Shown: piece after piece, positions 18,004-48,761 of the stretch
How the letters are laid out: each line of letters starts with the position of its first letter
Numbering within the stretch: position 1 is the stretch's first letter
Source: Lachnospiraceae bacterium
GTDB taxonomy: Bacteria > Bacillota > Clostridia > Lachnospirales > Lachnospiraceae
DNA: 64,000 nucleotides
Direction of reading: 5' to 3'
NCBI GenBank assembly: GCA_022652545.1
Contig: JALCRM010000001.1
Location: 1 to 64,000 of the forward strand
The notes under the pieces: generated by a model
The model's database searches: none
What the model was told of the DNA's origin: nothing
What the model saw: only the letters and a program-made list of their open reading frames with translations
Made by a program: the position numbers and the translations under genes

Positions 18004-18034
18004 GCCCCCGGTACGCTGTACCGGGGGCTTTTTA
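18004..18034 (+). terminator. Rho-independent terminator after rubrerythrin
   Basis: Perfect arms GCCCCCGGTAC and GTACCGGGGGC followed by TTTTTATT. Confidence 0.95.
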
Positions 18035-18040
18035 TTGAAA

Positions 18041-18090
18041 GGCAACCTACTTCGGAGAATTTGAAGATTCTCCTTATGGAGAGAAACATG
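18041..18090 (+). promoter_or_regulatory. Leader hairpin overlapping the flavoprotein start, twin of 47770-47822
   Basis: A 7 bp stem, GGAGAAT at 18054-18060 with ATTCTCC at 18067-18073, closes a six-base loop. The 3' arm CTCC can alternatively pair with the Shine-Dalgarno GGAG at 18078-18081. The same arrangement occurs before the GH113 gene, where the last pair is C-G instead of T-A, a compensatory change. Function unknown; a translational switch is an inference. Confidence 0.55.
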
Positions 18091-18783
18091 AAGATCGTGA
18101 TCGTGAACGGGCAGAACCATGTCGGGAGTACCTGCCGGATCGCGCGTGACCTGGCGCGGAAGGTCGGCGGGGAAGTGACGGAATTTTTCCTGCCGAGGGA
18201 TTTTGACGAGCCTTGTGTGGGCTGCACCGGATGTTTTATGAAGGACAGACACAAATGCCCGCATTTCGATAAACTGGAGCCGATCACGCAGGCGATCGAC
18301 GCCGCGGACCTTATCATACTTGCAAGTCCTGTCTATGTTTTTCATGCGACCGCGCAGATGATGGCTCTCCTTGATCACTATGGCTATCGCTGGATCATAC
18401 ATCGTCCCGAGCCGCAGATGTTTCACAAGCAGGCGGTCTGCATAAGCACGGCAGCAGGAGGCGGTATGAGATCGACCAACAGGGACATGAGCGACAGCCT
18501 GTTTTTCTGGGGCATCGCGAAGATCTACAAACTGGGCTATGCGATCCGGGCGGTGAATTACGATTCAATCACGGAAAAGAGACGCGCAAAGATCGAGCGT
18601 GATACTGCGTCGCTCGCTGCACGGATCAACCGCGCATACGGCCATGTAAAGCCGGGACTTCGGACGAAGCTGTGGTTCTATATGGTGCGCTTTTTCCACA
18701 AGCAGAACAGGATCGGGGCTGACTGGGACTACTGGGAAAAAATGGGGTGGCACGCAAAGAAGAGGCCATGGCAGGGTGGATAA
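18088..18783 (+). CDS. Flavodoxin-fold NAD(P)H-dependent reductase
   Basis: 231 residues from ATG 18088 (GGAG six bases upstream). The N-terminal MKIVIVNGQNHVGSTCRIA is the FMN phosphate-binding loop of the NADPH-dependent FMN reductase family. A Cys cluster CVGCTGCFMKDRHKC, seen in iron-sulfur flavoproteins and relatives, and LIILASPVYVFHATAQMMALLDHYGYRW follow. The basic/aromatic C-terminus (FYMVRFFHKQNRIGADW) is longer than in simple flavodoxins. Electron acceptor unknown. In-frame codons upstream include an ATG at 18076 and extend into the leader hairpin, so the start is not certain. Confidence 0.8.
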   Translation: MKIVIVNGQNHVGSTCRIARDLARKVGGEVTEFFLPRDFDEPCVGCTGCFMKDRHKCPHFDKLEPITQAIDAADLIILASPVYVFHATAQMMALLDHYGYRWIIHRPEPQMFHKQAVCISTAAGGGMRSTNRDMSDSLFFWGIAKIYKLGYAIRAVNYDSITEKRRAKIERDTASLAARINRAYGHVKPGLRTKLWFYMVRFFHKQNRIGADWDYWEKMGWHAKKRPWQGG

Positions 18784-47693: not shown

Positions 47694-47712
47694 TTGTGCG
47701 TTAAGGAGGAAA

Positions 47713-47776
47713 GTTTGAAAGTGCCGCCGATGCAGCACTTTCAAACCGCAGCATCGGTGCTGACGCACCGGCTGCC
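47713..47776 (+). ncRNA. Structured leader: two hairpins with a possible loop-loop contact
   Basis: Hairpin 1 has 12 bp perfect arms (GTTTGAAAGTGC, 47713-47724; GCACTTTCAAAC, 47735-47746) and a ten-base loop. Hairpin 2 spans 47748-47775 (GCAGC..CGGTGC / GCACCG..GCTGC). Loop 1 contains CCGATGC, complementary to GCATCGG at 47751-47757 in the 5' arm of hairpin 2, so the two states would compete. The start hairpin of the GH113 gene follows directly. No known riboswitch class was recognised. A frame with AAGGAGG and a TTG at 47715 also runs through it, so part could be translated. Confidence 0.45.
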
Positions 47777-47822
47777 CATTTCGGAGAACCTGATGGTTCT
47801 CCTCATGGAGGTTAATATTATG
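47770..47822 (+). promoter_or_regulatory. Leader hairpin overlapping the GH113 start, twin of 18041-18090
   Basis: GGAGAAC (47783-47789) pairs with GTTCTCC (47796-47802) around a six-base loop; CTCC can instead pair with the Shine-Dalgarno GGAG at 47807-47810. Flanking bases GGC..CC.A.TTC and the spacing to the start match the twin. In-frame ATGs at 47793 and 47805 lie inside it. Confidence 0.55.
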
Positions 47823-48761
47823 AACAGCGATCTGGCGATCGTCAGGGGAGTCACGTTTTATTTTCCGGATATAAAGAGGAACAAGGAACTGTCCGACGCA
47901 AGTCTTTTCGCCTCCCTCAGGGCGATGCAGGAATCGAGTGCCGCCAACACGGCTGTCCTTGCATTCCCGGCGTGGCAGGCCACTGCCCATGCGACTTCTT
48001 TTGACTGGCAGGACCAGGTGCCGGGCGACGGTACGCTCACGACTCTGATCCGCAGAGCGAAGGAAGAACTGGGCCTCCGGGTCTTTCTAAAGCCCATGAT
48101 CAACGTGAGCAACGGGGACTGGCGCGCGTACATCAATTTCCTCGGGCAGGGTGCAAAATGCGAGGGCACGTGGGAAGAGTGGTTCGAAAGCTACGGCGCT
48201 TACATGCTGCATTTTGCGGAGCTGGCCGAGCGGACGGGCTGCGAACTGCTGTACATCGGCTGCGAACAGGTCATGTCCGAGAGCCGCGAAGACGACTGGC
48301 GCAGTCTCATCGCGCAGATCCGGCAGCGTTACCACGGGCTCCTCACGTACAACACGGACAAGTACCGCGAAGAGTGGGTGACATGGTGGGACGCGGTCGA
48401 CGTGATCTCTTCGAGCGGCTACTATCCGGAAGGCAGCTGGCCGGAGAACCTGAAGCGTATAGAACCTGTCGTCAAAAAATATGACAAGCCCTTCTTCTTT
48501 GCGGAGTGCGGCTGCCCGAGCCGGCGCGGAGCGGGTGCGCTCCCGAACGACTGGACCAGGATGGGAGAAAAGGACTTCGAAGAGCAGGCGCGCTACTACC
48601 GCGACATGCTCAGCCATATGGAAGCGGCGCCGTGGGTGCGGGGCTGCGCTATCTGGGCCTGGTCGACGGAGGACGCGTTCTGCTCCGGCGACAACGACGA
48701 CTACAGCTTCTTTGACAAGCCTGCGGCCGCCGTGCTGAAGGAAATGTACGAAAAGTGGTGA
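47820..48761 (+). CDS. GH113 family beta-mannanase-like enzyme
   Basis: 313 residues from ATG 47820 (GGAGG eight bases upstream). Clan GH-A barrel; acid/base E149 in YIGCEQVMS and nucleophile E229 in FFAECGCPSRRGA correspond closely in position and context to the catalytic pair known for GH113 mannanases. The aromatic floor WAWSTED follows. No signal peptide, so it would act on imported mannan oligomers. It sits between nusB and xseA, away from both glycan loci, behind the structured leader. Alternative starts 47793 and 47805 would add nine or five residues. Confidence 0.82.
   Translation: MNSDLAIVRGVTFYFPDIKRNKELSDASLFASLRAMQESSAANTAVLAFPAWQATAHATSFDWQDQVPGDGTLTTLIRRAKEELGLRVFLKPMINVSNGDWRAYINFLGQGAKCEGTWEEWFESYGAYMLHFAELAERTGCELLYIGCEQVMSESREDDWRSLIAQIRQRYHGLLTYNTDKYREEWVTWWDAVDVISSSGYYPEGSWPENLKRIEPVVKKYDKPFFFAECGCPSRRGAGALPNDWTRMGEKDFEEQARYYRDMLSHMEAAPWVRGCAIWAWSTEDAFCSGDNDDYSFFDKPAAAVLKEMYEKW

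Follow-up and report, generated by a model that had tools for sequence, protein, structure and literature searches.

A small, modular and non-autonomous repeat has probably spread within a single bacterial lineage by landing between the Shine-Dalgarno (SD) sequence and the start codon of genes and bringing a ribosome-binding site of its own, a reading to which a probability of roughly three in four is assigned. The repeat was recognized through two copies in the window, namely, the 64,000-nucleotide stretch of Lachnospiraceae DNA analyzed here, and was considered across the draft genome to which the window belongs (G000; 2,669,890 bases in 27 contigs, 81% complete; C-numbers below denote these contigs). 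Among the possibilities raised in the original prediction was a mobile repeat carrying a start region of its own, which is favored by the copy number, the restriction to one lineage, the unrelated genes served and the SD-like words left upstream, as far as sequence alone can tell.

Both copies lie on the forward strand of the window. The conserved 38-nt core of the first, comprising hairpin III and an SD without hairpins I and II, spans positions 18046-18083 (covariance model R1, 49.5 bits, E = 2.4e-9; pattern match at 18051-18081). Coordinates and family pair counts place hairpin III of this copy (GGAGAATT-TGAA-GATTCTCC) at 18054-18073, while the 3' strand of an outer helix and the SD supplied by the element (ATGGAGAG) are found at 18076-18083, ahead of a start codon at 18088. 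The gene that follows (18088-18783) encodes a flavoprotein resembling NADPH-dependent FMN reductases (Pfam PF03358, E = 2.9e-19). Directly 5' of the copy, a terminator-like hairpin with a T run was read from the sequence (18005-18031); as the copy starts no more than about 15 nt past this hairpin and T run (18005-18050), scant room is left for a promoter.

The second copy is a full-length element. Just 5' of it lies a native-looking SD (GGAGG within ttaaGGAGGaaa) at 47705-47709, its position read from the sequence and upstream words of this kind being the subject of a family-wide test described below. Hairpin I, of type A (47713-47746), and hairpin II (47748-47775) precede the conserved core (47775-47812; R1, 62.2 bits, E = 9.6e-13), within which are found the 5' strand of the outer helix (CCAT, 47776-47779, read as pairing with ATGG at 47805-47808), hairpin III as supported by pair counts (GGAGAACC-TGAT-GGTTCTCC, 47783-47802) and the SD supplied by the element (GGAGG, 47807-47811). 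The start codon at 47820 is that of a gene encoding a GH113 glycoside hydrolase (47820-48761; Pfam PF22612, E = 2.7e-101). As such, the idea that two unrelated genes share a leader of about 45 bases stood in that both copies were found where they had been placed, but not in its extent, the leader of the second copy being longer by the two hairpins that precede the core.

When the window was searched with a pattern derived from both copies (TTCGGAGAANNTGANGNTTCTCCTNATGGAG, with up to 3 mismatches), those two copies alone were returned, with no match in 100 shuffled sequences; genome-wide, the pattern matched 54 places at the same tolerance, as compared to 0 for a reversed control. Covariance model R1, built from 54 copies with hairpin III as its sole structure, gave 83 matches in the genome at E ≤ 0.01 and 88 at E ≤ 1. 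The original prediction had proposed a search for further covarying copies as a test, and the 83 copies at E ≤ 0.01, with a hairpin III that covaries, bear the observation out. Subtraction of three of the weakest of the 88 matches (C5:48425, C10:69421 on the minus strand, and C7:66764) left a catalog of 85 copies in 67 places, 52 of them with one copy, 12 with two and 3 with three. The 15 arrays of two or three copies run head to tail, with a copy-to-copy distance of 103-135 nt.

A full unit comprises hairpins I, II and III, with hairpin I existing in at least three sequence types, whereas in some copies the 5' region is incomplete; the full 5' end was found by the junction script in 34 of the 85 copies. 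The element measures between about 40 and 110 nt, and its 3' end reads TCA-N-GGAGG followed by a spacer, mostly of 4-7 nt. Several unusual arrangements were also seen. At C11:54851-55109, copies lie back to back, ahead of divergent genes. One copy (C5:90492-90561) bears a 38-nt, apparently foldable loop on an intact stem. Finally, the last unit of the array at C2:152981 onward is without hairpin III (GCCCATTTTATGGAGG) and keeps the outer-helix letters, the gene behind this array reading, by eye, like one for tryptophanyl-tRNA synthetase.

At 62 of the 67 places, a frame of at least 80 codons begins 3-12 nt after the SD of the terminal copy, as determined by script, and in each of these cases the element is oriented in the sense of the gene that follows. 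For comparison, 28 of the 146 GGAGG words in the window, some of them true SDs themselves, are followed by such a frame. The spacer between SD and start codon measures 4-7 nt in 57 of the 62 cases (4 nt in 12, 5 nt in 18, 6 nt in 12, and 7 nt in 15). One case counted among the 62, the 82-codon GTG frame at C4:14157, is doubtful. For two places missed by the script (C3:150184 and C13:13536), an ATG frame was found in the frame listing, while at C2:152981, C10:69421, and C4:14157 the copies continue into further variant sequence that itself ends in GGAGG-spacer-ATG. The sole place among the 67 without a gene start is C13:29841.

The question of which genes follow further copies, raised together with the original prediction, was addressed by scanning 60 downstream proteins (70 frames listed), of which 52 contain a Pfam family at E ≤ 1e-5. 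The families are unrelated, and no common functional theme was found among the 60 proteins. They include the aspartate carbamoyltransferase regulatory chain, a Mur ligase, a class II tRNA synthetase with a threonyl/alanyl domain, SufB, phosphoglucose isomerase, semialdehyde dehydrogenase, pantothenate kinase, RsfS, dehydroquinase, transporters, glycosidases, and others; gene names used here, such as thrS and pyrI, were assigned from these Pfam families. Several genes of such kinds are usually essential. In the case of aroQ (element at C9:80163-80200), the gene upstream seems, by eye, to stop at the TGA of the hairpin III loop, with which the 138-nt gap between the two genes is in agreement. 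The element may thus provide one gene with its stop and the following gene with its SD.

Base pairing was assessed in 86 aligned rows, i.e., the 85 copies and one from a second genome (G061), 78 of the rows being distinct. In hairpin III, 97.9% of cells are paired and 5 of the 8 pairs present two-sided changes, with exchanges including U-A and C-G (42 vs. 34) and A-U and G-C (58 vs. 16). The compensatory change noted in the original prediction, with T-A in the first copy in the window and C-G in the second, is real and is one among many in the family. An outer helix, not part of the R1 structure, was also recognized, in which CCN 5' of hairpin III pairs with N'GG 3' of the hairpin, taking up the first two Gs of the SD. 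One of its pairs is A-U in 43 cases, G-C in 8, U-A in 2, G-U in 5, and other in 15; the next is C-G in 61, U-G in 8, U-A in 3, and other in 2; the fourth is broken in 36 of 74.

The joint covariation score of hairpin III and the outer helix was reached by 0 of 500 shuffles. Considered alone, the outer helix contains 14 two-sided cells, as compared to 3.8 upon shuffling (0 of 500), and its score was likewise reached by no shuffle, although neither the count of pairs with two-sided changes (32 of 500 shuffles) nor that of pair types (112 of 500) stood out. On an alignment made without structure, the outer helix fared less well (5 two-sided cells vs. 1.2, 1 of 500; score, 5 of 500). Hairpin III covaries strongly, and support for the outer helix is moderate. 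As for the remaining helices, two-sided changes were seen at 5 of 15 pairs of hairpin I, with mismatches at four, among 10 distinct type A stems, while the third closing pair of hairpin II is A-U in 27 and G-C in 10 of the folded copies.

Covariation alone, however, proves no RNA function, since kinship can inflate such scores and since templated correction of near-palindromes offers a rival account of them. Pairing might be kept at the level of DNA, either through an enzyme that reads the single strand once folded or through replication in which one arm of a near-palindrome serves as template for the other, the RNA fold then being a by-product. Y1 enzymes are known to move small palindromic repeats, and two-sided changes in hairpins I, II and III are what templated correction would yield. 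Yet two-sided changes are also present in the outer helix, the short arms of which are split by an entire hairpin, and no match to a Y1 family was obtained in G000. The letters of the loops vary as well, an argument to be qualified by the fact that Y1-type enzymes often read loop letters. Pairing kept in this manner is compatible with a mobile repeat that carries a ribosome-binding site, and is given perhaps a minority chance of being correct.

To consider the element as RNA, 52 of the 85 copies were folded in context (38-nt core and listed frame). For hairpin III, the median pairing probability is 0.99, with 47 of the 52 copies at 0.5 or above, as opposed to a median of 0.00 for the alternative that would sequester the SD, which exceeds 0.5 in only two, including the copy at 18046 (0.64). 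Across the family, a search for two-sided changes in support of a helix between the 3' arm and the SD found none, C-to-U changes on one side alone being seen. Given the lack of such changes and the contrast between the medians, the two-state translational switch that had been proposed is not upheld as a trait of the family, although folding predicts that the copy at 18046 may form the second state, atypical as it is.

The wider notion that the element belongs to a regulatory RNA class, be it a riboswitch, a thermometer or a protein-bound leader, that runs a large regulon by exposing the SD draws on the covariation of hairpin III, on the use of two SD Gs by the outer helix and on the five SD letters being unpaired with a median probability of 0.35 in the 52 folded copies. 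We nonetheless regard it as unlikely. Apart from the alternative SD pairing being without two-sided changes, the 60 downstream proteins share no theme, and no element precedes nine orthologous genes in congeners. As had been noted originally, no named riboswitch class is recognizable: the window is without an Rfam 15 match at gathering threshold, and a scan of 8 loci gave one sub-threshold match, to S4-Bacteroidia (23.7 of the 34.7 bits needed). Moreover, the loops vary in both letters and length, leaving no conserved unpaired core for a ligand.

Loop length bears on coding as well. The hairpin III loop is of 4 nt in 69 of the 86 rows and of 3 nt in 14, with loops of 5, 9, and 38 nt each appearing once. 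As these lengths shift the reading frame, the coding alternative (SENLxxLLMExN) named as a way to refute the original prediction is not supported. A related proposal, that the SENLxxLLME frame is translated as a leader peptide coupled to the downstream gene, is considered highly improbable. By eye, hairpin I of types A and C opens with a possible start (TTG or ATG) that follows an SD-like word upstream; against this, the 4-nt and 3-nt loops put the downstream part in different frames, the spacer to the gene start shows no preferred frame over 62 places, and type C leaders, again by eye, meet the TGA of the loop in frame.

Returning to the reading of a mobile repeat, its site of insertion was addressed through the leaders of orthologous genes. 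Eight congeners were searched for 12 downstream proteins, and leaders were read for nine of these, with thrS, pta, and coaX not among them; in none of the nine was the element present in congeners. The gap between sufB and the gene upstream is 125 nt in G000, as compared to 0, 2, 29, 32, 33, and 58 nt in six congeners (in a seventh, the value of 93 rests on a doubtful start or stop assigned by script). For pyrI, the gap is 306 nt, vs. 14 and 15 in two congeners and 86, 94, and 229 in three more, the others being unresolved; for murD, 91 nt vs. 35 and 39, with 174 in a third congener (G018); for the nuoD-like gene, 78 nt vs. 11 and 38, other congeners being unresolved or misaligned; and for aroQ, 138 nt vs. 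18 and 40, with 90 and 133 in two more and the others unresolved. No weight was given to rsfS (1, 64, 67, and 77 nt in relatives; 108 or 165 in G000), asd (33, 33, 38, and 78; 55, 88, or 154 in G000) or argB (87; 286 or 429 in G000), since the script yielded more than one G000 value for each, and no gap could be read for pgi. Where both neighbors were matched, leaders in congeners are mostly shorter.

An SD-like word was found within 20 nt 5' of the full 5' end in 12 of 16 cases with no copy before, as compared to 29 of 280 control windows taken 40-400 nt upstream (Fisher p = 1.3e-8), and in 10 of 14 when two possible remains of an older copy (C1:168827 and C8:66866) were set aside. In the other 4 of the 16, no strict SD-like word lies upstream. 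In the case of sufB, the word left 5' of the element (AGAGGTATA; GCAGAGGTATA) resembles the SD and spacer of congener G015 (AGAGGTTATT-ATG). Together, the upstream words and this likeness suggest that the element separates the native SD from the start codon.

The junctions themselves showed no sign of target-site duplication at 14 native sites (mean common spacer prefix, 0.86 vs. 0.74 shuffled, some SDs having been placed crudely by script), nor, by eye, of an inverted match between the 5' ends (AAGTTTGAAAG, ATTCGAAAG, or CATGACG) and the 3' end (TCATGGAGG). At 17 tandem junctions, the gene-side spacer tends to recur behind the upstream unit (4.12 vs. 1.43 shuffled; 0 of 5000). Such arrays could have arisen by successive insertions into a target that the element would restore at its own 3' end, although tandem units may come from local duplication.

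The distribution of the element was determined by searching other genomes with R1. Among 36 congeners and 24 genomes from other families, none gave a match at E ≤ 0.01, while the remaining 25 congeners gave 25 matches at E ≤ 1 in 12 of the 25 genomes, about the level of chance (best E = 0.0057); five loci among these weak matches are without the hairpin-SD-start layout. In total, none of 61 congeners contains a match above chance level. Likewise, no match at E ≤ 0.001 was obtained in 396 other genomes of the family, and 390 other genomes of the class gave a single hit (E = 7.9e-4), which falls inside a reading frame taken by eye to encode aspartyl-tRNA synthetase; weak or single copies could escape these two large samples, as stricter filters and few candidates per genome were used. 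The samples overlap. Neither a source in plasmids or phages nor one in viral contigs, the latter sought with exact patterns, was supported.

A scan of the species collection with exact patterns identified one record, JALCKY010000004.1, from a MAG labeled Lachnospiraceae (G061) that contains exactly one copy, in the layout GGAGG-TATAAA-ATG before a gene. At positions 641-726 of this record, a different hairpin (ACACCGGCA...TGCCGGTGT) stands 5' of hairpin III, a layout resembling the 'caacagcggcacgaagtgttgccgatgtt' variant of G000. Transfer of this copy along with its gene is not supported, the best homolog in G000 being 41% identical and located at C10:20983, where there is no R1 hit. That G000 is a draft of 27 contigs and 81% completeness could suggest an assembly artifact or a chimeric bin. 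Such an origin is, however, the least probable of those considered: copies occur in the interior of contigs as long as 530 kb, ahead of genes with products up to 83% identical to congeneric proteins, and the independent MAG presents its copy in the same layout.

With these alternatives weighed, the following course of events is proposed for the mobile repeat. The element would insert between the SD and start codon of a gene, leaving the native SD about 100 nt upstream, and its own GGAGG would take over initiation at the old start codon, such that insertion even before important genes would be tolerated. Hairpin III and the outer helix would keep the upstream sequence folded and place the SD at the foot of a helix. 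Spread by insertion and use of the SD of the element are both deduced from comparison of sequences, with gene conversion among leaders being another possible route of spread. An enzyme that prefers start regions presumably picks these sites, as random insertion with subsequent selection seems a poor explanation for only 1 of 67 places being without a gene start. Searches for a mobilizing enzyme gave 0 matches in G000 at E ≤ 0.001 to either a reverse transcriptase (PF00078) or a Y1 (RAYT) transposase (PF01797), the genome being 81% complete, and neither is supported as the mobilizer. Copies truncated at the 5' end were likewise dropped as a sign of reverse transcription, several having, by eye, a short hairpin II of their own, with no reverse transcriptase found. 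The stronger proposal, in which a mobile element targets the translation start itself, selecting the bases between SD and start codon and, as a portable ribosome-binding site, placing dozens of genes under one initiation region, is held only tentatively, at somewhat less than even odds.

The element can be compared to several known systems. Like the BOX elements of Streptococcus pneumoniae, it is small and modular, varies in the number of its modules, has proliferated in one species and forms hairpins when transcribed (PMC3049150). Expressed frames with a start codon in boxC are described in passages of that source, which make no mention of a ribosome-binding site brought in between SD and start codon, and the string 'ribosom' is absent from its main text (PMC3049150). 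Here, by contrast, 62 of the 67 places have a start codon at their end. MITEs of bacteria, among them RUP, Correia/NEMIS, ERIC, and RPE, are similar in being dispersed, non-autonomous and about 100 nt in length, with stable stem-loops in transcripts, yet are placed in AT-rich intergenic DNA or inside frames rather than at start codons, according to excerpts of PMC10969869 and PMC2229807, in which none is described as bringing a ribosome-binding site in behind a native SD; the main text of the former contains none of the terms 'ribosom', 'start codon', and 'Shine' (PMC10969869). In further contrast to MITEs, native junctions here are without target duplication and no terminal inverted repeat was seen by eye. 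REP/BIME palindromes, with their RAYT (Y1) transposases, are also hairpin repeats of high copy number in one genome, as excerpted from PMC2817692. They differ from the present element, given that no Y1 family match was found in G000. Moreover, BIMEs hold REPs in alternating orientation, whereas array neighbors here run head to tail. The mobile repeats of yeast mitochondria are GC-rich hairpins, for which we know of no tie to translation starts. Such short mobile repeats, as outlined in part of PMC4478555, resemble the element but reside in an organelle.

No report of a repeat of the present kind was found in the literature, among the matches listed, mostly outside subscription journals. Small interspersed hairpin repeats are the known part of the finding, while a ribosome-binding site brought between SD and start codon would be the new one; the targeting could be more unusual still. 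The small bacterial repeats compared here lie between genes or inside frames. If the proposed reading is true, a single repeat would have taken over the ribosome-binding sites of about sixty genes in one lineage, such that the translation initiation region would be swappable wholesale. This would also suggest that the inserting enzyme has an unusual target, and would offer a natural series of leader variants for considering how hairpins 5' of the SD set translation.
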